Assembly: GCA_000310025.1 (NCBI GenBank)
Contig: FN649740.1
Location: forward strand, 1,562,787 to 1,626,786
Length of the DNA stretch: 64,000 nucleotides
Origin: Ectocarpus siliculosus
Lineage: Eukaryota > Sar > Phaeophyceae > Ectocarpales > Ectocarpaceae
Direction of reading: 5' to 3'
The notes beneath the pieces were generated by a model that searched no databases, was not told the origin of the DNA, and was given only the letters and a program-made list of their open reading frames with translations. The position numbers were made by a program, and so were the translations under genes. Of this stretch, positions 3,041 to 55,047 are shown piece after piece (the first letter of the stretch is position 1; every line of letters begins with the position of its first letter).

Positions 3041-6000
3041 TTAGTCGATCATGCAAGGAGCCTTGCCGGTGACGGAGCACATGTTCCCGTTGTCCTTGAT
3101 GTCGCTCTGGCAGCAGTCGTCTCCGTCCAAACCCTCTCCGCGGTTGCTGCAGCCATCGCCGCCGCACTCGCCGCACCCGGCCTGTCGCATGGCGAACAGT
3201 GGCGGAGTGGATTTAGCAGGTGTCCAAGGTTCACGTACAAAAGTAGCACAGCAAGGTGTGTACGAGAACAGGCATCCAACAACAAGAAACCCTGTTCGCG
3301 TCCAACGCGACCGCACACAGCCGTGTTGCTTCGAAAATCGGGAAAAGGGGCACAACACCCAAAACTAGTGTCCGGTCTATCCCAAACGGGCATTTGGAAC
3401 ACGACCACAACCAATCGCCGAGAAGGATGGGGTGATCGGTGCCTCTTTCCGCCCCACCCCCACAATCCAACCAATACCACCATCTTTTTCAGCAGCGGAG
3501 CGGTTTGATTTGGGCTGACGCCGAATCGAGCACTACACACCCACCCGCCAACCAAGAACCGCTTGCACGGAAAGACCCCACTTACCGAGCAACAGAAGTC
3601 ACCCCTCTGGATCCCGTCGCACGTGAAGCCGGTGCCGGTGACAGACGTCGTCCCATAGGACCAGACAGACATCCTATCGTAGCCGCCGCACGTCTGGTCT
3701 GAGGCGCCGGCGCACGCCATGTCGCACTCGGACTCGGGGGCCTCCCCGTGCTGCTCGTAGTCAACCATCTCCATGGACCCGTTCGACGGGCACCAGCACT
3801 TCGTTCGTTCATTCGGTTTCACGAGAATGGTAGATGAGTCGGGAGGTGACAAAAGTAGGTCAGCGAGTGGGTGGCGGAATGCAGACGAATATCAACACAC
3901 GCATTGTGCGATACGCTAGCGCGGCGGTGGTCCGGCGGCTCCGCGCGGGGACACATGCTAACAAGTAAGGGGTTAGCCGGGTTTGGAATGGATAAAGCGG
4001 AGAGAAGAGGTACAGTCCAAAACAGAGCTCTTGTGCACGGAAGGAAGAGCAGGGCTCGATGTTCTAGCACGCCTTTAATTTTCACAGCGCCTCCATCTTG
4101 TTGGCTTGAGACGAGGCATGTATCGATCAACCCCCTCCCCATGCGAAAGCAGATTTGGGCTTGTCCGAAGCTGTTGCGGTTTTGAACTTGATGTACGTCT
4201 GTATCGTCGTCGTCGTCGCTGCCGTCCTCGTGAGCATGATCGACAGTTGGCACTGTGGACCGACTACCATGGCCACGACGCCGTGGGTACGCATTGATGT
4301 CGTGTGCTACGGCGCTGAGCGAGGAGCGGCGGTAAAAGGTTTTGGTGAGCGTTCGTCGGGCGACGAAAACTGGATTTCGGTTCGGGGGCGCCTCAGATCC
4401 GAAAAACAAGGAAAATCAACTCATTGAGTGTGGTTCACTTCCCTCACCTCCTTTCCCCACTGCGTCCCGAAGTACGGGGAGCCTTCGCACTCTTGCATGC
4501 ACCGCTGTGTACGGGTTTGGTTTGGCGTCAACAGAGGAGGGAGGCGAAGAGTAGTAGCCACGCAAAAGACAACACAGTTGTACGCGTCGTCGTCAAAGAA
4601 GGCATAACGCGAGGGTAGGGGAGATTAGTCTCTGTGAACCATCCACAGCGGTGGTTCAAACGGCGAAATCAGTGCTTCGGCTGTGCTCGATCCGCCCTAG
4701 TAACTTTATCGCACTTTCCCTCCCTGGAACAAGGATGGCGGTGTACCTACGATTTCACAGCCACCAGCGTCCTTCAGTGCTCAGGAAGGGCCAGGGTTCT
4801 GAGTTCTAAGCAGCGTTTAGATTTCTCAGGTAAAGCAGCGGTGTGCCCCTAGGGTCCGCGTCGCGGACCCGTTTATGGTCACGGAACTCTCCCTTTCTCT
4901 CGAGGGAACGTGTACTTCGTCGGGATCCATGATAAGTCGTCCTGTAGCGGACGGCCCCGCTCGGCGATACGTGCATGTGCCGTTTCGTTGTGTCTGGGAG
5001 TTTTTTTTTTTGTCTTGACTTCAAATCAGTGCTCACAGCGCTATATCTGAGTATATGGAGCCTCCACAAAAACGTTAACTTCAAAAATTTGAAACGTCGT
5101 GAATTTTTCTCATATGCTCGCACATTTCACGCGGTCACTCGTCGCACCCCTGTGCATGCACCTTCCCCTTGCCCCCTCACGGGCTCCCTCCCTGCAGCTG
5201 CTAAAACGTGCTCACTTTATCTTGCCCCCCACTTACACGTGCCGGCCTTTCCACGTTCTCTATGCCAACTAACCTCATTGGTCATGTAGTGCCTGTCAGT
5301 GATGCGCTCGCTGAAGATCCGACCAGAGTCCTTCACATCGATGTAGCACCCAAGGTAGGTCGCCCCGGGCAGCACCGACGAGGTGGGAGTCGGAGTTGGG
5401 TTCGCTGGAGCGGGGGTGAGAGGAGTCGTGGACTGCACCGGCGAGGTGGGAGTCGGAGTGGGGTTCGTTGGAGCGGGGGTGAGAGGAGTCGTGGACAGCG
5501 CCGGCGAGGTGGGAGTCGGAGTGGGGTTCGTTGGAGCGGGGGTGAGAGGAGTCGTGGACTGCACCGGCGAGGTGGGAGTCGGAGTGGGGGCCGTTGGAGT
5601 GGGGGTGGGGGGAGTCAGGGTCGGCGTGCCCAAGTCGTCGATGAAAGGGACGGAAGGTAAGCTTGACGGGCACTCCTGGTCCCAAGAGTCTTCGATCTCC
5701 TCGTCATCCCTGGAAACGAGAAAAAGAGCGGAAAGGGGGTGGAGGGAGGGGTGGCTCTTGGAGAAGACGGCCACAGATCCTTATGCACCAGACAGGTTAT
5801 AGGAAGAATACAAATTTCCACCTTCTTGTTCACAACCTGCTTCCATGCGTTTGTGCGAGCTAGTCTTCGGAAATGAGATTGAGGTTCCGGCGCCTCCCGC
5901 AATACGGTTTACCTACTCGCGCAACCTTCTTTTCCCGTTGGCCGTACGCACCCTTCCTCGCTGACATCGCAGTCACCGTCCTCGCACGAGTTTTCGCAGA

Positions 6001-29290: not shown

Positions 29291-29362
29291 AGGGTTTCCA
29301 AGGCCGTAAGACCCCCGAAGATTCCCTCAGGCAGGGTGGTGAGCTCGTTTTCGCGCAGGCCC
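29291..29362 (-). CDS. LRR exon A4 (24 residues)
   Basis: 72 nt, same phases. Encodes GLRENELTTLPEGIFGGL then TALETL. Open. It is the most 5' LRR exon visible in block A; no signal-peptide exon is seen upstream. Confidence 0.88.
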
Positions 29363-36391: not shown

Positions 36392-36679
36392 CTATTTCTT
36401 CTTCAAAGCCGTCGGTCGGACTTTCCCCCCATTGCAAAACACTGAAAACGTAGGGCGGTCCATGGGCGCCTGGGCCCAGCAGCTGCGCACCATCTCTGCG
36501 ATATCTAGGGGGGCGTCCGCGGGAATTGCGGGGCGTTCCTCGCGCATGACAACACGGAGGTAGATGTCTCGAGGCCGAATTTCGTTCGCCCAAGGTATCT
36601 GTCTTGTCAATACCTCCTACACCACCATCCCAAAGCTGTAGACGTCGCTCGCCTTGGAGGTTTTACTGGACTCCAGCAC
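36392..36679 (-). pseudogene. Kinase C-lobe exon with in-frame TAG
   Basis: After acceptor GAGAAG it reads VLESSKTSKASDVYSFGMVV, then TAG (36617-36619), then EVLTRQIPWANEIRPRDIYL, CWAQAPMDRPTF. TKL kinases have Trp at the stop position (VVWEV), so one G-to-A change explains it. The end FSVFCNGGK looks shifted: dropping one T from the GTTTTG run gives a frame that ends LDFEKRM. Confidence 0.85.
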
Positions 36680-37864
36680 CTTCTCGCGCGCAGATGGAAG
36701 AAGCGAATGTCAGACGCGCAATCACAACGCCGAAGGGGGTGGCATGCACAGTGCAATTTACATCCGAATCGCAACATAGCCCAGTACACGTTTGCAACTA
36801 CTAGTGTTGAAGGCCTTCCTATGTTTGTTTTCCTTCTAGGATCGCTGGATCGCCGGAGCGCAATCGACGAGAGAGCAGCACCGTCAATTTCCCAATTGGC
36901 CCATTTCGGATGGATGCCCGCCCGACTAAGCACCGCCCACATAAAGCACCAAGAGCACCGGGAATCTGCCTCAGTGCTCTCGTGCAGCCGGTATTGACAC
37001 GGCAGAGGCACTGTCTATTGCTTTGAAGCAGAACGCGTGATTCTAGAGGGCTCTGGTGATGCGTGCTTTGCACCGTTTCCGGAAACAAGTCAGCGACATG
37101 TGCTCCGGTTACAACCATCGACATCCACTCAGCAACGCCCATCTAGTTTCGCACTTGGGTGTGGCTAAGGTCTCTCATAGTAGAGTATTGTAGTCCTGCT
37201 GGAGTCAAGCTGATCTTGTTTTGAAATTCGTTTGAAATCCCTCAAACCGTCGTGACGTACACACACTAGCCGGCGCGGAGCAGCGCCAAGAATGTTGACA
37301 TTTTCATCTACAGAGTGCAGGGACCTATAGATGATGGGGCACGGACGCACAGCAGCACCAACATTTTCTTGGGAATCGCACAATTTGAGCGGGGGTGCGC
37401 CAGCACCAACGGCCCTTGGTACATATTTTTTCTTGTTCGCAATGGCACCACAAGAGACAACAATCGCCACAATATAGTTCTCCGTTGGAGAAGAAGTAAC
37501 AGCTGGGGGACAATTTCAAAGGCACAGAGACGACGTCGAGCTTCCAAGACCAAATTGTTGCACGAAACGCCAACGTACGCAAATGGCTGACAATATGCAG
37601 CGGATAGTTTCGAGAGCACGTCATTCCGTCTTGATTCTCTGCATGTATCACATGACCTTCACACCTTCAAGCCGTGCGGGAATTCAGCACAAAGTGCATC
37701 TCAACCGCAATGAATTTGAGCGCGTGCATTCGTTCGGTTCACAGGCGTATTTGGTATTTTTCCAGATCAACAGAGGCTCATACCCCGCACCTCGTCCTTG
37801 TTGGTACCAACCGTCCGTAAAAGCCCATCAGGGAAAACGATAGAATCACAGGCCGTCTCCTCAC

Positions 37865-37984
37865 CTCTGGGGCAGTCCATGCAAAGCTGACGTGGGCACT
37901 TGGTCCCGGATTTGTGGTGGAGGTGGCAAGGCCTGTGGATCTCTCGGTGTTCTGAGCCCACCTCGACTTGCCGAAGTCCCCAAT
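37865..37984 (-). CDS. Kinase activation-loop exon (DFG to APE)
   Basis: 120 nt, open. Encodes IGDFGKSRWAQNTERSTGLA through VSFAWTAPE, with the Mg-binding DFG and the APE anchor. The acceptor is CCCTCCAG and the donor is GTGAGG. The upstream intron has a GC donor. Confidence 0.9.
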
Positions 37985-38392
37985 CTGGAGGGACAACATG
38001 ACGCATCAGCAGGATATGAAACTATGTATTGATATGTAATTTGTGGTCCATAGTTTGGGTTTGAACTTCACTTACTGTACACAACCGAACCCATTTGCAA
38101 ATGTATGGAATATGAGGAACTGGGTAGAGCCGGCTCTTTCTTCCGTATGATTTAACACCACCACAACCACCAGCTCCACCACAGACAACAACAACAACCA
38201 CTACATGACAGCCATCCTGTAGCGACAGATGTAGACAAAGGGGGTGTATGTTTCTCGTCAGAGCCGCGGCGACAGGAACGCGGGGTACGTCCACAACCCT
38301 TCGAAAGAAAGGCGGGGACCAAAACCAGCGCGGAAATACGACAAGATCTACAGCACTTGTGGCACAAGACAACCCCCAGACGCCCAACATGC

Positions 38393-38725
38393 CTTTGCCC
38401 TTCCGCGGCCATCCAGAAGAACGTTGGCAGACTTAAGGTCGCCATGCACCGTCGCCTTGCTGTGCAGGAAGGCCATCCCCGCGCATACATCCTGGATGAT
38501 CTTCCGGCACTTATCCTCGGGAAGCGGGTGCTCAAAGTTCTTCAGCATGGCCCGAAGTCACCGCCCGCGAGCAGCTCCATGACCAGAACCAGGCGGCCCG
38601 GCAGCGAGGTGATCGCCCCGTAGACGTTGACGGTATGAGGGTTTCTCAGGCGAATCATGGCGTCCAGTTCGCGCAGGAATGCCTTGCGCTCGGCCTTCTC
38701 CCGCAGTGCGTTAGACTCGCCCATC
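38393..38725 (-). pseudogene. Kinase core exon (alphaC to HGD loop) with frameshift
   Basis: Encodes MGESNALREKAERKAFLREL, IRLRNPHTVNVYGAITSLPG, LVLVMELLAGGD, then a 1-nt loss at about 38557, then MLKNFEHPLPEDKCRKIIQD, GMAFLHSKATVHGDLKSANV. HGDLKxxN is the TKL form of the catalytic loop. Length is 333 nt while phase at both borders demands 334. The donor after GGGCAAAG is GCATGT, a GC-AG intron. Confidence 0.87.
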
Positions 38726-39000
38726 CTTGGCCCACTCAGTGGTATGTCGCTCTCTCCCGGCTTCCCGAGACCGTGGGTGATGTGCTGTACCTGTATCGTC
38801 CAGCCATACCACCGTTGATAAGAAACCGAACAAGAATCAGACAGAGCACGACAGCGGGAAACAAACAAGGGGTGGAAAATGACTCCTGCGGGTGGTTGGG
38901 TGTTGGTGCTTCCGCTCCCCAGGCATGCCCTACTCGGTCGCTCGGCGGTACTTATTACTCCCAGCTGCTTTGGTCTACCAGTCGAGCATGGCTTACGCAC

Positions 39001-39182
39001 ACCTTCGCCGCGTTGTGGCCGTTGTAGTCGGCCAGGTACACCACGCCAAATCCCCCCTTTCCCAGCATCTCGTTTGTGATCGACACGTGGTCCTCGGGGA
39101 TTTCGATCTGATCAAGCTTTCGCTGCCGCCTCGACCTGCGGGCTTCAGCCAGAGATTCCGCCTGAGCCTCCGCCGTGGACCT
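39001..39182 (-). CDS. Kinase N-lobe exon (glycine loop and VAxK lysine)
   Basis: 182 nt. Starts RSTAEAQAESLAEARRSRRQ, then KLDQIEIPEDHVSITNEMLG, KGGFGVVYLADYNGHNAAKV. GKGGFG is the nucleotide loop and AAKV carries the ATP-binding lysine. Ends with two bases of the next codon; donor GTGCGT. Confidence 0.9.
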
Positions 39183-39480
39183 CTGTAATATAGAGACGAA
39201 CGTCAAGTCATCAAGAGGCACATGTCCAAACACAAATCGTTAAACGCTGCTTGACTGAACCCTCCCGACCCATAGGAAGGGATTCGGTCTAAAGGTGAGG
39301 CGAGTCGGCGAAGAAGGTGGAAACGGGGTGTCCTCGAAAGGGCCCTGTACATGGCTTATCCCGTGGTTAGTACAAGCCACCGAGGCGCAACCTGCGGCGG
39401 GCTATGCATACAGCAGCAACCGCGTTGGAATTCGAAGGATTCTGCATAGAGTTCGCTTCATCTCCGTGGCACGTCCTCAC

Positions 39481-39570
39481 CTCGACAAGGTGCGCCACGT
39501 CGTGTCGAACCTGCCCAACGTCGTGCCCCACCTGCGCAACGTTGTGTCCCACCTGCACCTGCAGGCCCAA
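39481..39570 (-). CDS. Amphipathic repeat exon between helical domain and kinase
   Basis: 90 nt, phase 0 at both ends: LGLQVQVGHNVAQVGHDVGQ then VRHDVAHLVE. An xxVGHDV-type repeat of about seven residues recurs three times, suggesting an amphipathic brace helix. Acceptor CGCCCAG, donor GTGAGG. Confidence 0.8.
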
Positions 39571-39963
39571 CTGGGCGACACCAAGCAGCCAATATGGAAA
39601 CCGGCAGGCGGTAACGCGACAACCGAGGTCAGAACACCCTGTACAAGTCGGTCGACGTGAGAAGCGCCATGAGGCAACCTTACATTCGTCCGATGGAAAC
39701 CGTTCCAGACCCCTCTACGAGGAATTCCCACTACGTGTACCCCGCGTTGCCAAAAGCAAAATCGTGATTTCTGAAACGGGATTACAAGTCCCCAAAACCC
39801 CGCATAGACGTTTCTTTTCAATGAACGACGTGCACAGAGCGAGCCCTTAGAAGAAGCTAGACATGAGAGAGACAACAACGCATGTTTTAGCGCAGCTGGC
39901 TGCGCAGTCGAGGAAAAATCCATACTCAATATAGCGCATTGCTTTGTGGTACACGGCACTCAC

Positions 39964-40155
39964 GTGCAGGCCCCAGATGGCCCTGTCCATAACCGCGTTC
40001 AGCTCGTCCTGGCGCCGCTTGAACAGGGACGATGTCAACACCTGGGCGAGTTTGCTCTTGTTTTGGAAAGTTTTGATCAGCTCCACGAGATCGGAGACGG
40101 CGTCGTGCACTTCTTCGATCAAAACGCGCTCATCCTCTTCGCTCGTGTCGCCACC
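39964..40155 (-). CDS. Helical-domain exon 2 (HeLo/MLKL-NTD-like)
   Basis: 192 nt, phase 0 at both ends. Encodes GGDTSEEDERVLIEEVHDAV, SDLVELIKTFQNKSKLAQVL, SLFKRRQDELNAVMDRAIWG. The helix pattern and its place before a kinase resemble the four-helix N-terminal domain of MLKL and HeLo-type proteins. That similarity is by pattern and context, not by search. Confidence 0.75.
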
Positions 40156-40885
40156 CTACATGTAGATAGCAGTAGTCGAGCGCTAAGGATTGCACAACGG
40201 AGAAATCAATGTGTTCGCCGTCGCACACAACGCACCGCTTTCGCAAAGCAGCAGAGAGGCTGGCCGTGGGGGTCGTGTGGGCGTCGCCTCAGCAAACACT
40301 CAACGACCAAAGCACCAGCCGCCAAAAATCAGGCGTTCCTACGCCTACACACAACGTTTTGTCATTCATGAATCCAATCTAATCGTAACAAGAGAACGAC
40401 TACAAACGCTGGCAACCTGATCAAAGCATGTGCTCCTTGTATATTGTGCAATTTATGAAACAGCTAGATTCCATGATACGAAACAGCACAAACATTAGAC
40501 CACGTACGACTACAGAACACGTACTGGCGCAACCTCTCGGACCCGTGGCAAAAAATGTAGGTTTCCGTGCCGGACAAAGACGGCAAAATCTTCCATGAGG
40601 CACAAACCGCAGGTTATGGCCCCTAAGGCTTAAACAAAAGCCAAGCGAAACCCGGGAACATGAGGCAGTGAAATGCCTGATCGTGTCATTGTGGCGGAGA
40701 CAACTGCGCGATTCTGCAGGAACAGCCGAACGACACCACGTGATAGATCTTTGACCGTACTTGTACCTGAAAATTCAGTGTGTACGCCAAGAAGAAAGCT
40801 TGTCTCCAACATCCTCCGACGTCTCCAAATTAGGCAGGACACGCATGGTGTACACACACACACAAACACGAGTAATGTAGCTCAC

Positions 40886-41858
40886 CTTGCCGAGCACTTT
40901 GGCCTCCCGTTCAAGCATCATCACGATCGACCGGCACTGCTTAACCCCGGCTTCCGCCCGACTCGTCAAGTCCCGACTGTCCAAGACCAAGTGTATCAGA
41001 ATCGACACCGCCGTCGCTGCCTCACTGACGCCGGGGATCTGGCAATGATGTGCCAGCTCCTCTGCAGCCGCCAGTACTGCCTGGCCGTACCCGACGCCGC
41101 TGGACGTCCGTCGGCGGCCGCTAGCAGGAGCAGCAGCAGCAGCAACCGCAGCAGCCGCCGAAGGAGAGCCGTCCGTCCTTTCCTCCGCCGAAAATCCGAA
41201 CCCGGCAACCTCGACGGCCCGTTTTTCCGTCGACACATCGGCGGTGGAGTTCGTAGTCGATAATGATAGCAACGACTGCTCGGCTGCTGCCACGCAGTCG
41301 CCGCCGTCTTCCGCCGCATCGCCCCCGGCCCGGCCCCGGCCTGCACCCGCCGCCCTAGTGCCAACACCGCTTTCGTTGTTGTCGCGTGTGCGCTTGGGTT
41401 TTTCCTCGGAGCTGGGCTCCGGCAGGGTGTCCACGGGTGGAGCTGGGAGCAACGATTGGATGGGCGTGCCATCTTCGCCGAATTTTGTCTCAGCGACGAC
41501 CGCCGCGGGCTGCTGACCGGCGGCGGGTAGCCAACTATCGCGCTGGTGAGCATCATCATGCGCATGCGGTGGGGGCGGCGGCGGGGAGTCTTGCCGGGCA
41601 GGAGGCGGTGGGCCGCGGGTAACGTTGTCCCCGGCAGAGCCGGCGACGATCGGCGAAGAGGAGTGAATGTCCTGCTGCAGTTGCTGGTGTTGTTCCCCCC
41701 GGCCATGCTCCAGGCTGTCCCCACCGAAAAAAGGAGGGGCCGGCGGGTCGGGGTCCGTGCTCTTCGCGGCCCGTCGGCGACGTAGGAAGAACCCCAGTGC
41801 TGCTAAAGCCAGCGCGCGGCCACAACGCCGACTACAACGCCCACCGTCGATGCGCCTT
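40886..41858 (-). pseudogene. Transmembrane, proline-rich and helical-domain exon 1, frameshifted
   Basis: Starts after GACAAAG; with the G left by a linker exon it reads EGASTVGVVVGVVA, then a 1-nt loss (about 41812), then ALALAALGFFLRRRRAAKS. Together these are one membrane helix with Arg stop-transfer. A disordered Pro/Gln/Ala segment follows (RGPPPPARQDSPPPPPPHAH), then GYGQAVLAAAEELAHHCQIP, GVSEAATAVSILIHLVLDSR and KQCRSIVMMLEREAKVLGK, the first helices of the helical domain. Without the lost base the upstream frame stops at RWL-TAG. Confidence 0.83.
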
Positions 41859-43172
41859 CTTTGTCCAGACGAGCAGCGGAGGAGCAGCGATGAGCGTTGA
41901 TGGAGGCGGCACTCCGATAGGCAATAGCTGGTACCAGGACAACGACATTTCGACGTATCAACCCGAAGTATTTCAGGGCCAGTCTTTGCGATCTCACCGC
42001 CGCATCAAACAATCATGTGCGGGTGTGCAACTGCCCGTGTCCCCAAACAATTACCTGGTACTTTGGAGGTGCAATGGCAACCGGGGAGGGTCATCGTATC
42101 GGCAATAGTGAGGGTATTCTGGACATCAGGACAGTAGCTATCCACCATGAAGGTGGAAAGCCACCCGCTCTCAAACATTGCCCAGAAACTCTTGCGGCGG
42201 CGGGTTGACCCTGCCTATCGGTAGGCGCAAGCTGAGCGCAGGTATTTTGGTAGACACAAAAACTAATGAACAAGCGAGCGTCGAATCCTACAGAAAAGTA
42301 CACCGCAGGGGAGTTCGAAGAGGGAACCGACAAGGGGTTGGCTTAATAAAGCCAAACACTGAATCGCCAGGGAAAAAAAACGGCTAACAGTGGACAGAAA
42401 AACACGAACGAGAGCATAGACATGTACTTCTTCATGGGGGTTTCAAAACGGGCTTACATCGGCAAAGCCAAGCTCGTCTGAGTCGTGACGCCATGCCCTC
42501 TTCAACAAGGCAACCGTTCCCCTCCTGAGGCGACCCGTGGAGGGACGGTGACAGGGGATGGTGTGAGAAAAGGAGAATTGAGGCAGAGAGAAACCCATGC
42601 GAGACAGCAGTGTCGAGGTATTTCACCTGGAGAAAACGAAAAAATAGGCGCCTATGGGTCACTAGTTGGCGGCGCCACGTCGCGATCGCGTGAGCATTGC
42701 GCATAAGATCACCACTGTATACCCTCCTCCTATCATTTGCAGTACGTTGTCAGGGAGAATGCTAGATTCCGCCGAACACGATCACGTCGACATCAACCAC
42801 GAGGTATTGTAGGGAGTTATTCGCCAACAATGAAAAGCAAAGTACCCCGCAAATAAACGACCATGATCCCTACACAGCGTGTAGGAAGCACACCAGCAAC
42901 AACGGTCGGAAAACAGCTCTACGAGAAGCTGAGACCCTTCATTCACTAGCGGTGATGGTCACTAGCCCCGTGACCTGCCGGATAGAATAACGTAGCCTTG
43001 AAGAGGGCGGAAGGTTTTGGGTGCGGACAAATACCACTCCGGATGGTAGTGGACTGGCGATGTTTGGAGCAAAGCCACGGATATGTCAATGCTCGACAGC
43101 TTAGTTCAGCATGTAGTCAATACGGCATGCCCCAGTTGAACGGGAGATGCGGCATCAGGTTCGGAAGCTTAC

Positions 43173-44259
43173 CTTCTGAGCTCGAGCCAGGTGCCAGTGT
43201 AGATTGTGGGGCAGATTCCGGCGCGGTCGCGCAGGTGCAGGCGCAGGCGTAAGTGTGGCCGCTGCCTCTAGATACCAGGTTGACGTGAAGGATTTATGTG
43301 GGTTGGACAAGCAAGAGGTTCGCCGGTACTCATGCTTCACCCTACCTCCTGCCGAAGGAGCGGGAAAGCCAAGCCAGCAAGCCAAATACGACATGCGACC
43401 TTCCTTGGTGGCATGGATGCGTGCACTCAATCAGCTGGAAGAACAATCACACTTTCGGAAGACTCACTTTGCTTGAGAGAGTTCTTCAAAGAATGTTATG
43501 GGTTTGGAGACAAACGACGGTCGCACATGTAACCTACGGCATTCCTGCAGGCACAGCGGTTCAGGCACTCTCGTTAGGGGTTATCACACCATAGACCATG
43601 ACCCTTACACAGCGGGTAGAAAGCACACAAGGAACGGAGGTCGGAAACGAGCACTAGGAGAAACTGACACCCTTCGGTCACTAGCGGTGTAGTCTCCTAG
43701 CCCCGACATAGGCAGGATAGAACAACGTAGCTTTGAGAACGGCGCGAAGGCGGAAGGTTTTGAGTGCGGCAAAGTACCACTCCAGATGGTAGTGAACTGC
43801 GAATGTTTGGAGCAAAGCCGCGGATATGTCAATGTTCGACGGCTTAGGTCCTGCTTTTACCAGCACGGCATGCCCCAGTTGAACGGGAGATGCGGCATCA
43901 AGTTAGGAAGCTTACCTTCTAAGCTCGAGCCGGGGGCCGGCGTGAGTTGTGGGACAGACTCCGGGCCGGCGGCAGGTGCAAGCGCAGGCACAAGTGTGGC
44001 AACTGCCGAGCGATACCAGGTTGCACTCCGGATGGTAGTAAACTGGCAATGTTTGGAGCAAAAGCCGGGGATATGTCAATGGTCGACGACTTGGTTCTCT
44101 GCTTGTGACAATACGGCATGTCCCAGTTGAACGGGAGATGCGGCATCAGGTTCGGAAGCTTACCTTCTGAGCTCGAGCCGGGTGCCGGCGTAGGTTGTAC
44201 GGCAGATTCCGGCACGGCCGTGCCCAGTGCAGGTGCAGGCACAGGCGCAAGTGTGGCCG
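43173..44259 (-). repeat. Three tandem copies of the Pro/Ala linker exon
   Basis: Copies at 44259-44164 (96 nt), 44002-43916 (87 nt) and 43261-43173 (89 nt) all end before GTAAGCTTCC. The first reads ATLAPVPAPALGTAVPESAV then QPTPAPGSSSE. The second reads ATLVPALALAPAAGPESVPQ then LTPAPGSSLE. The third has lost its frame. The first two are multiples of three with matching phase, so either or both could be spliced in. Confidence 0.72.
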
Positions 44260-45629
44260 CTGCTGCGAGATAGCAAATTGGTGGGAGTTCGAGGATTTAT
44301 TTCGGTTGGACACACGAGGGGTTCACCAGGTACTCATGCTTCACCCTAACCCCCGCCGGGGGGCGGGAAAGCCAAGCCAAGAAGGGAAACCGACAGTGGT
44401 ACAATAATCACACTTTCACAAGACATCACTGCTTCAGAGAGTTTTTTATGGTATATATTGAATGGGTTCGGAGAAAAACGGCGGTTGCAACTGCAACCTA
44501 AGGGATTCGTGCCGGCACATCGGTTCAGGCGCTCGTTAGGCGGTATTTGCAACTGGAAGGTTGCGATGCATGTTTGCTTGGTGCAGATCACACTGCCTTT
44601 GTAGGCCATCAGATTAGGGGGCGTCAACAGCTGAAACGTCAAACAACGATCTTATTCGTAGCAGATGGCGTCTTGGTGCAACCTGAGCATGTAAATCAAT
44701 ATCTAGTTCCTAAACATGGAGAAGAGAAGCAATTGTTTCGGGATGAACAGCATCATTTGGTCGACTGCCCAGGACCCTCGATGAAGAGGATGGACCAGAA
44801 CGGTAATTTACTATTGGCATGCTTTTCGGGCCGATATTCTTCTCTCACCACAAGAGTACCCTTAATCTCCGGGAGTGCACGTTTCTTGACCGCACACGTT
44901 GTCGGTCACGCCCTCAATAGAACACCCTGAAAACGCTCGAAGCATATCAGTGCACGGGCGGGCGCGCATCGCAAAAAAATGCTCGTGAAGGTACAAACCC
45001 TAGCGCTGCTTGGGGAGAAGGGTGACAACACATCTCGCCCAAAAATAAGCATGCCAACATCCATCCCTCGCCCGATTGTGACTTTCGAAATCAGTCTCGC
45101 GCAGAGGATTGGAGATGCGGATTTGCACAGAGTAACAGACCTCATATAGAACGGAACAGCCGCGTTTGGGTTCAAACAGATAGAACTGTAGCTCGTTTCG
45201 ATCATTGTTTTGACTTCAAGCGATGCCCGGGACTGAATCAATTTGCAGACCCATCTTCGGCGGTTTCGCCGTGCGTTCTCTTCATGGTGTAGTCTGGGCG
45301 TGGTACAGCTGACCGCCATTCACAGCGATCCGGATTGCACGAGGGTGAGGGAGCAAGTGATCGATGTACTGTAAAGTAGCTGGACCAAGGGGCGACGCAG
45401 AACGACATTTCGCCGGACCTCTGTGCCGCTCACCACCAGAAGCCCCGGCCGGATGCCTCGGTTGGGAAGTGGAGCGCAAAACAAAATCACAGTACTGGAC
45501 ACCCGCATCGAAGAAGGACATGACCGACCCGATGCCTTCGTGGGGAGGACTGCGAGGCAGCAACAGCAACTGGGCACCGGTGAGAGTCCCTATCTCGGTA
45601 CATCCTTCTCTTCTCGGCGAACCATTAAC

Positions 45630-45676
45630 CACATTCGTCACAGTATGCATCAACTTCGAGCCCGTCTTCTTCCACC
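45630..45676 (-). CDS. 47-nt Cys-ending exon after the LRR array (block B)
   Basis: Bounded by ATCGCAG and GTTAAT, it encodes VEEDGLEVDAYCDEC. Same length and phases as the block A exon; the donor is weaker. Confidence 0.6.
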
Positions 45677-47409
45677 CTGCGATGATGCACAGGAGTTATG
45701 TAAGACAGATGCGGTGCACAGTCTAAACAACAAAGGCTATGTTCTATCCATGGGCAAAGCACAAGCAAGGCGCATGCCGGGAACAACTCGACGTTCTGTA
45801 GGTTTAACCGAAGATGCAATGTATTATTTAGGCGTGCTACGAGCCCACGCGTGCTCGATAAATACTCGCCGTGGGCCCGAACAATGATTACCAACGCGAT
45901 TGCTCAAGCGGCTCGACGATTTCCACGTTCTACGAATCACGTTTCGGTGAATACTCTGAGAAGCAACGCTACTGTAAGACACGTCTAATATCACGAGCAG
46001 CAGCGAACAGCAATTGGTGCGCCGACTTCGTATCTACGTCATGCTGGCCAGATCCCCAACCGCGTTTTACGGTCCACGTTGTTCTATCGATCTGGATTTC
46101 AAAGCGATCGATCGATTCTTATTTCGAGTTCCTCACAGTGTTGTTGAGGGCAAGCACTCCAGAGAGTTTCCCTGCAGCCACCTGAAATTCAGACCCCGAA
46201 CGAGATTCATTCATTCGCCGGCGCAAGACAGGACGAGAACGGCAGATGCAATAACGAATCAAACGTTGTGGAATAAACCACAAGGTAAGCATCGTTGCCA
46301 CTAACGATACAACTAGTTGTTCGTGGGGAGCCGTCGCCAAATACAGCAACAAGCCAGGGCCGCAACACCACGCCGATGAGGGTCGAGGTAGAGCAACAAT
46401 GGTACAGATAGTAGTAAGTGTAGGACGATAATTCCTCTTTTTCTCATGGCTTGCTTGGGGGGAAATCGATAGACTTCTGAGCAAAATACAATCTCGCCTG
46501 GAAAAGGGAGAACTTTGAGTACAATCGGAGGGGTTTGAGAAAGGAGCTTTGTAAGAGGGACGTCATAAAGGCCGGCCATGTCGGGAAACTGAGTACCTTT
46601 TCCCGCTACCTTGGGACAACGTATACAATGATGCCCGACGGGTATTATAGTTCGACCACGTTTCCTCGATTTGCAGGTGTTCGTTTTTGCTGGCGTACGT
46701 AGCAAAGGATCTATTAGAAAACCGGCAGGTTGGGGACATATGCCAAATACACTGGGATTAGGAGAGCACACAAGCGTGGGGGTGATCTCATGCCGTGGCA
46801 GGCAGGCCTCAGTGTATGTTGGCAGGTGCCCCTGGTACGTCGTAAGCTACAACGACGAAGAAACAACAGATACTAAACGTAGTGCGCGGGTGAAGTATCA
46901 CGTGGAGCACAAAAAAGAAAAATGAACCTCTTTCCCAGTACGTTGAACTACCTGGGCTCTGAATCTCCCAATTGCGCACGGAATACGGTGAGGCGAAACA
47001 AAAAACTGTGATGTGACACACAGTAGACCATTAAGCATCTACACGAGGCTAGAGAAAAATCGCAAGAGGAACATTGTCAATGAACGGAGCCAACGTTCAA
47101 TAATCTCAGCAGCGAAGGGTGTCCGAACTGCATCAGTTACCCGTTCCCGGTGCGCTGCCCACCATCATTTTTGACGGCAGTTTCGAGCAGGGGCTGACTT
47201 AGACGTAGCAAACTCTCACCGACTTCGGCAGTTGCGCTTCTAGTGCAGTGGTACTCTCCCCCGCATCTCCCAACCGCTCGTTCGACAGTCCAGACTCTCT
47301 CTTGAAAAGGAACACGTCGATTGCAGTTCTGCAATCCAGGAAAACGTTTGGTGATTTCATTGCTCTAGCGCAGGCTGAGCCCATGCTGAAAAGCATCCCA
47401 GCTACTTAC

Positions 47410-47481
47410 AGTGTTGTCAGGGCGGTAAGACCCCCGAAGATTCCCTCCGGCAGCGTGGTGAGGTTGTTGTCAAACAAATAC
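47410..47481 (-). CDS. LRR exon B0 (24 residues)
   Basis: 72 nt, AG/GTAAGT borders, phase 2 to phase 2. Encodes YLFDNNLTTLPEGIFGGL then TALTTL. Open. Confidence 0.88.
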
Positions 47482-48351
47482 CTTTGAGTGTCAAGGGGAG
47501 GCCACGTGAGGAGCAAGGCAACGACAAGTTAGCGATGAATCACTTTGTTAATTAATGCACTGACGACGTTCGAGTGCTTTGGTACAGTAACGGAACATTT
47601 TCCGCCGTGTGATGACCTACCAAAATCATTATTCGGAACAACGGAGCCGATGATTGAATATTCCCACTAGATACACAGCGACCGTAACCTGCACATTCCC
47701 CGCAGTGAGAAGGGACCTGTCATGGGCAAACAAGAAGCCTGGCGCGCCCTCAAAATTAGAAGGGTGTCTTGCACACCAAAATGGAGTCCACGCGGTTAAA
47801 CGATCCCAGGCAAGGACAAACTGAAGTGTTGAGGGGTTTTGGGTGTTGTTCGTCCTATTTGCCTCACACACGCTTGACCACATTTCGGGGCAAATTGGCA
47901 AGTGGATTAACCACCAAATTAGTGTTGCACCCCACCAAATTAGTGTTGCACCGACACCAGCAGGGGAGAGCAAAGCGTGACCCCCAAAAGACCCCCCTGT
48001 GCACTCCCAATGGTAGGGCGCTCGAAAGGTAGGTAATCGTGATGCTCGGCCAGAATCATTTGGAGAGGGTGTCCCATGGTTCGGGGATTCGCCAAAGGAT
48101 ATTGCATGCCCGTTTCCGTTCGCGGGCGGGCGCACTGAATGCCACCTCTGATGGCTAACTTCAACCATGGGGGCTGATAAAAGTACCGATCCCCGCCGAC
48201 TTCTTCAACATCGTTGCTAACGCCATGGTGCCCAGCATCCCTGAAACACTTGTTCGACATCCGCATACGCCCCCTCTCTCGCTCACTAGTAGCAGCGTGG
48301 AGCTCATGGGGAAAAACATCTCACCGACAACCGCGTCCAACAACTACCTAC

Positions 48352-48423
48352 AGATTTTCCAAGGCCGTATGACCCCCGAAGACTTCCTCAGGCAGGGTGG
48401 TGAGCTCGTTGGAATTCAGATTC
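48352..48423 (-). CDS. LRR exon B1 (24 residues)
   Basis: 72 nt. Encodes NLNSNELTTLPEEVFGGH then TALENL. Donor GTAGGT instead of GTAAGT, and the usual Leu before TAL is His. Confidence 0.86.
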
Positions 48424-49215
48424 CTTTGGGTGTCGAGGGAAGGCCACGAGCGGGGCAGAGAGCACACATGAGCTAGATATCAGTGCGTGCTGCCGGACAT
48501 GGTGATCTACATGGCGCGGCCAGCCCGCCAACATGCACCGACGACGTTCAGTACAGTGGCACTATCAAAGTCACGGACTCTTCCGCCGCCGCGTGATTCC
48601 CTGGGTACAGTCATACCTGGTACAATAATGCATCATTCCCGCTACAGTTGAGGCGACCGAGTTGGCCGCCGTAACCCGTTCCAGGGTTGCGTTACGTACA
48701 CCAAGGATCGGATAAGCGATAAGGATATGAGTCCAGTGCGGGAACCACCATGTTAAGGGTCTACCGCCAATTCCAGGAAAGGATAATCTATCCCGCTACG
48801 TCATGCGATGCTTGGGTACTTGCGTTTCTAGCCACGCTGACATCGCCTCCTTCTCTCGATCACGTCAACAAATGATTAGATCCGATGAACTTGCAAGTCA
48901 ATGCCCAAATGAACCCACCATCAAATCGAATTTGACCCAATCGTGTGTATGACACCCATCCAAGCGCAAGTTTCGAGACAGTGCAGCGGGGTAGACGCGA
49001 TAACTACAGCGAGACTACGGTGCGTAGGCTGGAGCTGGTCTTGGGGCACCCCCCCCTATTCTACACCGAAATTCTTACCACCTGCTTTCTGGCGCGCTCG
49101 TTGGGGTTCAATGGTTCGTGGGCACGATCGGTCTGTGGTGTTTGTGTTCTCCATCGCAGGGCTCACCACATGCGGAAAAGTGTCCTACCGACCACCATTT
49201 CGAACAACTACTTAC

Positions 49216-49287
49216 AGAAATCCCAAGGCCGTGAGACCCCCGAAGATTCCCTCAGGAAGGGTGGTGAGCTGGTTGGAATACAGGGAC
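49216..49287 (-). CDS. LRR exon B2 (24 residues)
   Basis: 72 nt. Encodes SLYSNQLTTLPEGIFGGL then TALGFL. Open, with standard borders. It lies about 230 bp from the gypsy junction. Confidence 0.88.
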
Positions 49288-49519
49288 CTTTGGTTGTAGA
49301 GGGAAGGCCACGAGCGGAGCAGAGAACACATGTGAGAGAGGAATCAGTCCTTGCTGCCGCCCATGGTAATCTACGAGGCGCGGCCAGCCCACCAACATGC
49401 ACCGACGACGTTCTGTGGTGCTAGCAAAGTCGTGGACTCTACGCCGCCGTGTGGTTATCTGGGTACAATCTTACCATCACACACGTAACCCGTTCCAGGG
49501 TTGCAATGCGTACAACACG

Positions 49520-50284
49520 GAATCACAATATGGTTGCGCCGCTCTGCTCGATTCAGGATCACCGGCCACGTTCATCAACAGCAACGCTGTCGGTACCCTC
49601 AAAGCCATGGGAGCCATCTCAGAGGCTTGCATCTCGCACGGCAACGCACATTCTTGGGGAGGTTTTGGTAAATCCGAATCTCTTCAAACGTCTGATACAG
49701 TCCGTCTGAGTGTGCAATTTTTCCACGGTGATACGCCTTCGGTTTCTCTTGCCGTTGGGGCGCACATCGTCCCTGCAAACACCATGCAGTTTCCCATCCT
49801 ATTGGGACGCGATAGTTTCATGCGATGTAACGCTCGCACGTACCATATGTTGCCTCCGAGGCCACTGGACAATCGCGTTTTTGGTGAATATACGCTTGCC
49901 CACCAGGATGATTCTGGTGCGGTCGCGTATGTGCCCGATTTCACAGACCCCGCGGACCAATTCCAGCTCCGTCATGCATGGCCAACGGGTACCTCATTGT
50001 CAGACGACCACCAAATGATCGAAGTCAACTTGGTGCGTTCCAACGGTACACCGACTCTGACCGGTCAATATCTTGTCGACATGTTGCCTGATGTTTCGTC
50101 GAACGAAGAAATCTTTGTCTCCTACGGACGTCAGTTTGTGCCGCTCGCGGGTGCTGCAGAACTTGAGCCTGGAGACTTGCTCGGTACTGCTGCCGCCCCA
50201 CTGATGCGCGTCCCGGTAGAGCATTTAGAACAACAGTTTAGTGACGAAGCTGATACTTCATGTTCGGTGCCTGGACCTATTTAG
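49520..50284 (+). pseudogene. Gypsy aspartic protease region
   Basis: The frame carries CAALLDSGSPATFINSNAVG with the D-S-G active-site triad and a later ILLGRDSF motif, the usual layout of retroelement proteases. It ends at a TAG (50282-50284), and the same frame reopens directly into the RT-proximal segment, so this is a single nonsense codon or a readthrough site. Confidence 0.8.
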
Positions 50285-51780
50285 GGTTCTACCGAGGATA
50301 ACGCGGACAGGACCATCGATCCGCAGGTGCGTTGCCACGATCCCTTCGTGCACAACCTACGATCCACCGATCCTCCTGTGCCGGACCCAGGGAAATCATC
50401 CCCTGCGGTCCCTGCCCCCGCTCACACTTCGCCCTCGCCGCCGCCACAGCATGTGACGGAGCGGTTGAGCGTTGATCAGAGAGTTAGCTTTGAGCCATTG
50501 TGGAATCGCTTGCCGCCTCACCTGAAGTTGGTTAAGTTTGATTTACACGGTCCTGGTTGGTCACCAGAGGTCATCACAGAACTTGGTGATCTTTTGCATG
50601 ATTTCCAAGACGTGTTTTCCACATCCTCGACGGATTTGGGGTCCTGTTCCCTATTGCCGTTTGAGATCAAAGTACCTGCGGATTGTCCCCCTGTGACGTC
50701 CAAACCGTACCGTATGAATCTTTTGGTTGCAAAGCAAGTCGATGCCATTTTGGACCAGCATCTAGCTGCTGGCCTAATTCAGCACTCGACCTCTCCTTAA
50801 TTTCAGCCCCATTGTGGTTATACCAAAGAAGTCTGGTGGAATACCCATCACGGTTAACTACAGAAAGTTGAACCATATCAGCAGCTTTGGTCAACCTCCC
50901 ATTCCCCGAGTCGACGAGATTCTAACGAAACTCAATAAAGGTTCGATTTTCTCGCTATTCGATTTTACGGGTCCCTTCCACCAGATCACTGTCCACAAGG
51001 ACACTATCCCCCTTACGGCCTTTGCGACCCCCACTCGTTTGTTCGAATGGCTACGCATGCCGATGGGTGCTAGCCAATCCGCAGGCCACTTTGTAAAAGT
51101 GATCAACGAAGTAATCAAAGGACTCGATGGAGTCGAGGCATACCTCGATGACGTCGTTGTTTTTGACGAAGGCCCGCAGCAGCGTGTCCGTAATATGCGC
51201 ACGCTCTTCGAACGGTTGAGGAAGTACGACCTCAAACTTTCTGCCTCGAAAGCCACCATCGGTACCACCAAGGCTGACTTCTTGGGGCACACCATATCTT
51301 CGAAAGGTGTCCTCCCCAACGCCCGTAAAGTAGCCGCCCTGGCAGGTATGCCCATGCCTACGACCGTCAAGCAACTCAGGTCACTCATGGGTGGTCTGAG
51401 CTACTACCGACGTTTCCTCAGAGACATGGCCAAGCGTGTGAAGTCCATTACGCACTTGCTCAAAAAAGGTGTTCCCTTCGCTTTCACAAGCGACATGGAA
51501 ACAACTGTTCGCAGCCTACTGGCTGAGCTCGCGAAACCGCCCATTTTAGTGTTTCCTGATTGGGACGCTATCGCGGACGGTACACGCCCTTTACGTCTTT
51601 GCTGTGACGCCAGCTCCGACGGTCTCGGCGCCGCGCTGTAGCAAGAGCAGAAAGACGGCTCGGTACGGCCGATCGTTTTCATCAGCAGAGCCACGCTCGA
51701 CGCTGAACGCAACCGGGCCGCTCTCGATCTCGAAGCAGGTGCCGTTGTATGGGCGATCAAGCGTCTCCGACCCTCGTGGC
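50285..51780 (+). pseudogene. Gypsy reverse transcriptase and start of RNase H
   Basis: Begins with a Pro-rich spacer and LPFEIKVPADCPPVTSKPYR, the N-side of RT. A 1-nt gain near 50799 shifts into VIPKKSGGIPITVNYRKLNH, RVDEILTKLNKGSIFSLFDF, MGASQSAGHF, AYLDDVVVF (catalytic YxDD) and FLGHTISSKG. Then comes TLLCCDASSDGLGAAL-type RNase H sequence interrupted by TAG at 51639-51641 where an acidic residue is usual, continuing through IVFISRATLDAERNRAALDL. Confidence 0.87.
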
Positions 51781-52398: not shown

Positions 52399-52573
52399 GA
52401 CCATTGTATAGGGACACCGCCACGGTGTACGGACCGTCTGCGCGACCCCACACGGATACAGCTGCATTTGCGCTCCCTATCCACGACACACAGACCGCCG
52501 ACGGTAACTCTCGGTTGCCCCCTGTCGTGTCTCCGCGACAGCAACTGTCGACGCCGGCTCCCATTCTGATCGT

Positions 52574-54630
52574 TTGGATGCCGCCGACTCATTGCCGCCG
52601 CCTTCGACCTCTCGATTGCAACCGCATCGTATTGATCCGTCGGAACTGATCTCTACTCGTACGCGTCGCAGAACCGCGGCTGCTGCGGGTCAGCGTCAAC
52701 CCGATGTAAACTACGGTTTCGGTCCTGATTTGTCGATCCCCCCACACGCTCCGCGTGCAGCTGCCGCTGCAGGCGCTTCTCGTCGTCAAACACGAGTGAC
52801 ACCAGCTGACACCACGTCTGAGCCTGCTGTCGAACCTGCCCCAACGGTGCCCATAGCGCCGCCGGAGACGGTTACCGACGCCCCTACGGGTCCTCTGTTG
52901 GGTTTGTCACAAACGGCTGCTGCAGCTGGTAAGGCAACGCCCGCAGTGGATTCCATGGTCCTCAATCCTGCAGAGTTAGAATTCCGTGAGTCCGTCGAAC
53001 GCTACACGCGTGCTGATTGGGCGCGGGAACAGCAGAAAGAGCCGGTGTGTGAAGCCACCATCCGCTACATTCTCCTCAAACGCCCTCAGAGTCTACCTGT
53101 CGGTTTCTTTGCCAGAGTGTCATATCACTCCAGGCATAGACCATCGTTGGAGGACATTCGAGAGCTTGCAGATAAAGGACGCCTCGTCACTGACGATGGC
53201 CTTTGCCTCTTGGTACGAAAGAATACCAAGCCCCCGGTCTCTTCTGACCGTCCCGGAGGACGAGCTGCACGTCTGTTGAATGACGAACCCACTCGTATTT
53301 ACGTGCCCATGTTAATGCGACCTTGGGTCATGCAAGCTTGTCATGCCAACGCCCTCTGCCTTGGTACCGCTCGCACGCTTAGCTTGCTTGAGAGGTTTTA
53401 CTGGTGGATTGGGATGAGTATCAGTACTCGTTGGTGGATTCGGCGATGTTTGAAATGTCAGGCCCGCAAAACTGCGCGCCAGACTATTCGCTGGCCGATT
53501 CTCACGATCCCTCTGCCTTCGGCACCAGGGGTCGCGATTAGCGTCGACTATTTTGGTCCGCTTCCCACAACTCCGCGAGGTTTCTCGTATAATTTGCTAT
53601 TCGATGACCGTTTCAGTCGGAGAGCCAGTACGTACGCAGTGACTGACGCCGAGTTCACAGCTGAAGGTACAGCTGACGTCCTTGTCAATAAATACATGCC
53701 TGTTTGGGGATGCCCCCTCAGCATTCATTCTGACAATGGATTGCAGTTTTGCTCCAAACTGTCGGTTGCCATCCTAAAATTGCTACGCGTCCGAAAAATT
53801 ACGACGAGCGCGTACCACCCTAGCGGCAACGGAGGGGTTGAGCGCGTGAACCACACCATGGCCCAGATGCTGGCAATGGTTGTGAACGAACGACAAGATG
53901 ATTGGGACATTCATCTCCCTCATGTTGAATTCGCGTACAACAACTCCGTTAGCGCTGCCACAGGATTGGCGCCCAATGAGGTGCATATGGCGCGCCTTCC
54001 CAGGTTTCCACTGACCGTTTTTGACAACATTTACGCTCGTGGTCACCAGTCGCTTGCCCGCGATCAGCTCGAGTATTGCAACCTTGCCGCCGATCGGCAA
54101 CGGCGCTCCTACGAGCTAGTGCGTGAACAACACGCACTCACAGTTTCCCGTACGGAAAAACGGAACTCGAAACTGTCTGATGCCTTACATAAACTACCCG
54201 TTTACGCTACCGGTGGTTGGGTGTGGGTCTACAACCATTTGGCTACCATCCGCCAAGGTGCCAAACTCACTTCCAAAGCCCGCGCAGACGCTGACTCCCA
54301 GGTACTCAAGAAGAAGCTGTCCTTGAATTGGACAGGTCCTTTTAAAATCCTCGCAGTCGGTCCTCCCGATGGCAGCCCGGTGGCTGACAAGCTCCTGTAC
54401 TTGGATCTTCCTTCCGATATGCCCGGAGTGGATGCCAAGCACCGAGTTTCTGTCGCTCGTTGCAAACCGTGTGCGAACCCACACGATAATGACGACATGC
54501 CCCGGTTCTTGCGTGCAGGCCTCACGCAGTATGTTCTCAACAACTACACGACAAAGTCTCCGCCGTACCATGTTACCGCGGACGATGTTTCGGCGCCTGT
54601 CCGCAGGCTCGAGGTTAATAAATCACGGGA
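52574..54630 (+). CDS. Gypsy integrase
   Basis: Long open stretch with an Ala/Pro-rich lead. A zinc-binding region follows, with C-L-K-C intact but CLG where HLG is expected (MQACHANALCLGTARTLSLL). The DDE core is complete: ISVDYFGPLP, IHSDNGLQFCSKL and HPSGNGGVERVNHTM. A C-terminal GPF(K)ILAVG-type beta-barrel region follows. There is no methionine at the first open codon; as part of a polyprotein none is needed. The open frame continues to 54982, but after about 54628 the protein-like signal moves to another frame. Confidence 0.88.
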
Positions 54631-55047
54631 CACCAGTCGGTTCGAGGACGTGGCGGCGTCATCGCAGTCATGTACGAGACCCACTGGAAAGGTCTTATGC
54701 GCCCCTCGTGGGAACGAGAAACGGACCTCCAACACTCCCGAAAACAGATTCTTCTGTATTGGGCTGGTACGCCCGACCATCATCGGCAGACTATCCGTCT
54801 GTATCGTCGCATACGCATTGGCGCAGCGGAACGTGAACTGTCTCGCATCAAAGGCGAGCGGTCCTCGTCGCCTGGGTACGAATATGTTCCCCGCGATGTT
54901 TGGGCCCGCCGTTTTCGCAACACCGTGCTGCCTGTTGGCGCACACTTCTGGTATAAGGCTCAAGCCGCTCTATGGTGGCTAGGGAAAATCTCCGGACACA
55001 CTCCAACTACAAATGTCTTCTTCGTTCGCTTCCTGGATGACCCTTGA
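54631..55047 (+). pseudogene. Gypsy polyprotein C-terminal segment, shifted frame
   Basis: From about 54631 the plausible frame reads MYETHWKGLMRPSWERETDL, YWAGTPDHHRQTIRLYRRIR and VLPVGAHFWYKAQAALWWLG, then KISGHTPTTNVFFVRFLDDP and a stop. A lost A in the AATAAATC run explains the jump. A Tudor/chromo-like small domain is possible; not certain. Confidence 0.6.

Follow-up and report, generated by a model that had tools for sequence, protein, structure and literature searches.

MLKL and the fungal HeLo/HELL proteins place a helical bundle first, then a brace-like segment and last a kinase domain, and the same order recurs in a receptor-kinase locus with leucine-rich repeats (LRRs) of the brown alga Ectocarpus siliculosus, the subject of this report. 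The locus occupies positions 49287-36392, minus strand, of a 64,000-nucleotide stretch of contig FN649740.1 (hereafter the window, to which all coordinates refer). The MLKL module is known as a soluble effector or as a part of NLRs, and in animals and plants perception, kinase switch and membrane executioner are divided among several proteins. Non-RD kinases are linked to immunity. Plant LRR receptor-like kinases, in which no MLKL-like bundle is known, resemble the locus in working plan, with LRRs, one transmembrane (TM) segment and a non-RD kinase. Dievart et al. (2011; PMC3268121) give them a separate origin: two Ectocarpus LRR receptor kinases, likewise with an LRR ectodomain, a TM segment and a kinase, were placed in a lineage-specific clade and described as having arisen independently. 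A 2021 review also has these receptors evolving independently in brown algae and gives their ligands and their link to the cell wall as unknown (PMC8307928). The available text of Dievart et al. deals with two genes and names no helical domain (PMC3268121), whereas here 19-21 genomic places share the bundle and some relatives have a propeller. With brown-algal LRR receptor kinases already in print, the receptor is of a known kind; the bundle is the part that we did not find described in the open-licence texts available. Among the matches listed in that literature, none tied MLKL or HeLo to brown-algal receptors, and MLKL occurred together with Ectocarpus in an atherosclerosis review only.

We read the window locus as the decayed copy of a receptor kinase from a brown-algal family whose intact members join a sensor, a TM helix, an MLKL_N/HeLo-like bundle, a brace and a TKL kinase and work as a switch; to this reading as a whole we assign a probability of roughly 0.5. 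A search of the 189-Mb E. siliculosus assembly with the helical domain gave 42 matches, which were sorted by hand into 19 places, the window included, with at least one helical exon at E<=1e-3, and two weaker ones. Each of the places has, no more than about 6 kb away and on its own strand, a match to the kinase model PF07714. In databases, the helical region of paralog L040 retrieved 83 related proteins from Ectocarpus, Scytosiphon, Laminaria, Hapterophycus, Pylaiella and metagenomes, and P0075 as seed retrieved four, one of them new. PF07714 was found on all 57 relatives scanned and LRR_8 on 26 of them, while a motif census of 84 relatives recorded 30 with LRR motifs and six with propeller-like ones, counts in which absences mean little because many database entries are partial. 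P0027, one of the propeller relatives, has a match of 2.3e-16 to an SBBP beta-propeller model. Complete relatives such as P0012, P0017 and P0062 begin with a hydrophobic N-terminus and show by hydropathy one TM segment between ectodomain and kinase.

That LRRs, TM segment, helical domain and TKL kinase form one chain, as the preliminary description had predicted, is borne out by these relatives and genomic places, and proteins with the domain order that it had proposed to look for exist: P0001, P0012, P0017 and P0062 each carry LRR, TM, bundle and kinase on one chain. The partial state of many database models would suit LRR exons and kinase exons belonging to separate genes; with four one-chain relatives and the same order in the window, we set that explanation aside as very improbable. 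Between the LRR receptor P0017 and the propeller receptor P0027, identity is 10% in the ectodomain, 33% in the linker, 67% in the helical domain, 62% in the brace and 70% in the kinase. Four pairwise comparisons, which include an LRR receptor against two propeller receptors, gave 62-72% for the helical domain, 65-80% for the kinase and 31-55% for the linker, so conservation of the helical domain comes close to that of the kinase. The receptor family is alive, with ectodomains that vary (LRR or beta-propeller) and a bundle that is conserved. The metagenome relatives are P0059, P0060, P0069, P0070, P0072, P0075 and P0084, and P0072 has LRR, TM, bundle and kinase.

In the window the receptor anatomy is real. 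The minus-strand exons encode, in turn, LRRs, a stalk, the TM/Pro-rich/helical region, a second helical part, a brace-like segment and, over four exons, a TKL kinase, which is the order in the annotated one-chain relatives P0001, P0012 and P0006; the predicted succession of parts and the motifs originally quoted for them are all present. Three LRR exons of 72 nt each, located by tblastn with relatives and by splice borders, lie at 49216..49287 (one 24-residue LRR), 48352..48423 and 47410..47481, all preceded by AG and followed by GT. A piece of the last LRR, WLQGNSLECLPSTTL, lies at 46136..46180 (15 residues at 93% identity with P0012, E 0.003). The Cys-ending cap that had been proposed does exist as a Cys-rich exon at 44847..44927, with an in-frame TAA at about 44864-44862; the piece near 42150 first taken for it was set aside in favour of this exon after tblastn with relatives and is now regarded as intron. 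An Ala/Pro stalk exon follows at 44165..44260; copies related to it stand in tandem at 43861-43975 and 43118-43232. A single exon, 40886..41884 (upstream border approximate), holds the TM segment, with a frameshift at about 41815, the Pro-rich linker and bundle helices. The helical domain is spread over this exon and a second one of 192 nt (GGDT...GLH; 39964..40155), and continues into the brace-like amphipathic exon of 90 nt with its expanded seven-residue repeat (39481..39570). The kinase exons lie at 39003..39182 (linker helix, GKGGFGVVY and lysine region), 38393..38790 (HGDLKSAN, a frameshift at about 38557 and a GC donor), 37865..37984 (DFG to APE) and 36392..36679 (in-frame TAG at 36619-36617). 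The joined LRR pieces match Pfam LRR_8 at 9.3e-21 and a kinase piece matches Pkinase at 3.4e-16; identity to P0001 is 65-94% in the TM/helical and kinase exons and 62-78% in single LRR exons. These matches and identities argue that the exon anatomy is not due to chance.

The window copy itself is almost certainly a pseudogene. It carries four defects, the two in-frame stops and two frameshifts given above; its second kinase exon measures 398 nt against 402 nt in the intact paralog L040, and it has one Ala fewer beside the kinase lysine. A signal-peptide exon upstream of the LRRs was not found by tblastn with P0001, P0012 and P0006. Retroelement-type open reading frames (ORFs) adjoin the LRR side on the plus strand from 49370: an ORF lacking a Pfam match (49370-50281), then one ORF at 50778-51638 with a reverse transcriptase and one at 52508-54979 with an integrase Pfam domain. 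The pseudogene call is founded on the stops, the frameshifts, the signal-peptide exon not found and the abutting retroelement ORFs. Every defect is a small change and might be an assembly error in a working gene; against four separate disablements, the result for the signal peptide and the neighbouring retroelement, this is very unlikely. In paralog L040 (C12), moreover, each spliced exon from the TM exon onward is a multiple of three and in frame, and the same cytosolic exons are open in paralog L041.

The receptor kinases keep their catalytic motifs, unlike the pseudokinase MLKL. HGD (HGDLK) is found in 64 of the 65 that show the motif, among 84, DFG-T/K-SR in 55 of the 84 and the AAK lysine in 68, and from these motifs the kinases are predicted to be active and of the non-RD type. 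Four MLKL_N matches over the cut-off lie at other genomic loci, two of them (C10 and C29) beside an HRD-type TKL kinase. A search with the C10 protein returned 25 proteins, 22 with a precomputed MLKL_N match and some with TPR or LRR, of which six were scanned. These soluble MLKL_N-TKL kinases of Ectocarpus (L001, L002; proteins P0085-P0107) belong to the same genus as the receptor and likewise place an MLKL_N-type domain before a TKL kinase, but differ from it in their clear MLKL_N scores, their N-terminal bundle, their HRD motif (16 of the 17 that show it, among 25) and, in some, TPR or LRR tails. In a tree of 19 kinase sequences with one outgroup, the receptors and the soluble kinases fall into separate groups; the tree says little on sisterhood because it omits five short pieces, which come from the loci L003, L004, L006 and L008, and because the P0018 and P0073 cut-outs are over-long. 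MLKL_N-like stretches also occur at L042, L043, L044 and L046, two of them over the cut-off (C485:50478 and C21:3137075).

The likeness of the bundle to MLKL/HeLo, which the preliminary description had proposed, is supported, short of proof. Pfam MLKL_N (PF22215) matches P0007 at 7.6e-6 and P0006 at 8.6e-6; it matches four of 11 helical fragments (best 2.5e-5) and none of the same 11 fragments reversed, and 13 of 57 relatives at E<=0.5, in one register in P0006, P0007 and P0017. A precomputed PF22215.2 match is listed for two of the 83 relatives. The predicted fold of P0022 drew only kinases among the matches listed, and P0041, a relative that includes little of the kinase, was therefore folded next and searched; MLKL (6zvo, 4btf) and NRG1.1 (7l7v) stand in the first 20 VIA-align rows, among natural fold matches, and no viral model matched at E<=0.001. 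Several results weigh on the other side. The scores of P0006 and P0007, 25.8 and 25.9 bits, lie below the cut-off of 27 bits in the Pfam version searched. Of two hhalign runs of the bundle against the soluble MLKL_N proteins, one gave E 0.026; the other scored 17.2, not significant against 100 column shuffles (mean 13.6, standard deviation 3.0, maximum 21.4), with 14.3 for the reversed-profile control. Sequence searches against solved structures (PDB) returned no MLKL at E<=10, Foldseek with the P0041 model gave nothing significant, and for bundles the fold matches obtained fall into a grey zone. The receptors also depart from MLKL and HeLo proteins in that the bundle is internal to a membrane receptor, the kinase motifs are intact and the MLKL_N scores stay under the cut-off. 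We consider homology of the helical domain to HeLo probable, and not proven, since neither the profile-profile and PDB-sequence tests nor Foldseek reached significance.

How intact members might work can be outlined. An outer sensor, either LRRs or an SBBP-type beta-propeller, would sit on one TM helix, with a Pro/Ala-rich tether keeping the bundle, the brace-like segment and the TKL kinase (non-RD, HGD) beneath the membrane. Ligand binding would cluster the receptors, clustered kinases could phosphorylate the brace or the bundle in cis or in trans, and the freed bundle might then oligomerise at the inner membrane, giving ion flux or membrane signalling and, at the extreme, cell death. We infer each of these steps and prefer the scheme as the one that uses all conserved parts. 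In HET-S a free N-terminal helix inserts into the membrane (PMC10197012, the available text of which mentions brown algae solely with regard to the shuffling of NB-ARC-TPR exons). Simple insertion of that type is argued against here, the bundle being not at a free N-terminus but behind the ectodomain, the TM segment and the linker. A stronger version, in which brown algae possess single-chain receptor-executioners with varying sensors, each kinase freeing its own MLKL-type bundle so that perception, switch and executioner reside in one protein, is speculative and on balance doubtful. An immune role, as in the preliminary description, or a cell-death role is no more than a suggestion from domain logic. 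Hypersensitive-like responses are reported for brown algae in a paper whose text lacks the word 'receptor' (PMC11570863).

A serious rival, which we hold to be possible though not the likelier account, is that the helical domain has neither HeLo homology nor membrane activity: as a juxtamembrane bundle peculiar to this lineage it would dimerise the receptor or act as its scaffold and regulate the kinase, the output being ordinary kinase signalling. The non-significant hhalign, PDB and Foldseek results, the internal position of the bundle and the active look of the kinase all suit such a scaffold; the MLKL_N matches in one register that vanish in the reversed control, and the presence of MLKL and NRG1.1 among natural fold matches, are harder to accommodate under it. 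Compatible with either account, and put forward tentatively, is the view that whatever the bundle does, the receptors sense cell-wall or developmental signals rather than pathogens. Some members have a beta-propeller ectodomain, and the review cited above considers that brown-algal LRR receptor kinases may sense the wall (PMC8307928); nothing speaks directly against this view, yet the separate LRR exons resemble those of the brown-algal ROCO candidate immune genes, whose LRRs lie on separate exons subject to shuffling (PMC11378527).

Returning to the switch reading, a sensor, a TM segment, an MLKL-like bundle and a kinase on one chain would be an unusual design if the resemblance reflects function. 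Should the bundle be a HeLo domain, membrane receptors of a separate multicellular lineage would have taken up the MLKL module, in a genome that also has soluble MLKL_N kinases; brown-algal receptor kinases would gain an output domain concrete enough to test, and how regulated cell death arose in brown algae would become a testable question.

Elsewhere in the window, the relic of a second receptor lies on the minus strand at 32576-21301. It comprises a signal-peptide-like exon at E 0.008 (32576-32475), LRR exons near 29358, 28484, 27646 and 26839, and, in shifted frames, what remains of a TM/Pro-rich part (21598-21301); three relatives as queries gave no helical or kinase match in it. A minus-strand ORF at 3052-3891 shows a weak match, under the cut-off, to the WSC domain (E 0.0012).
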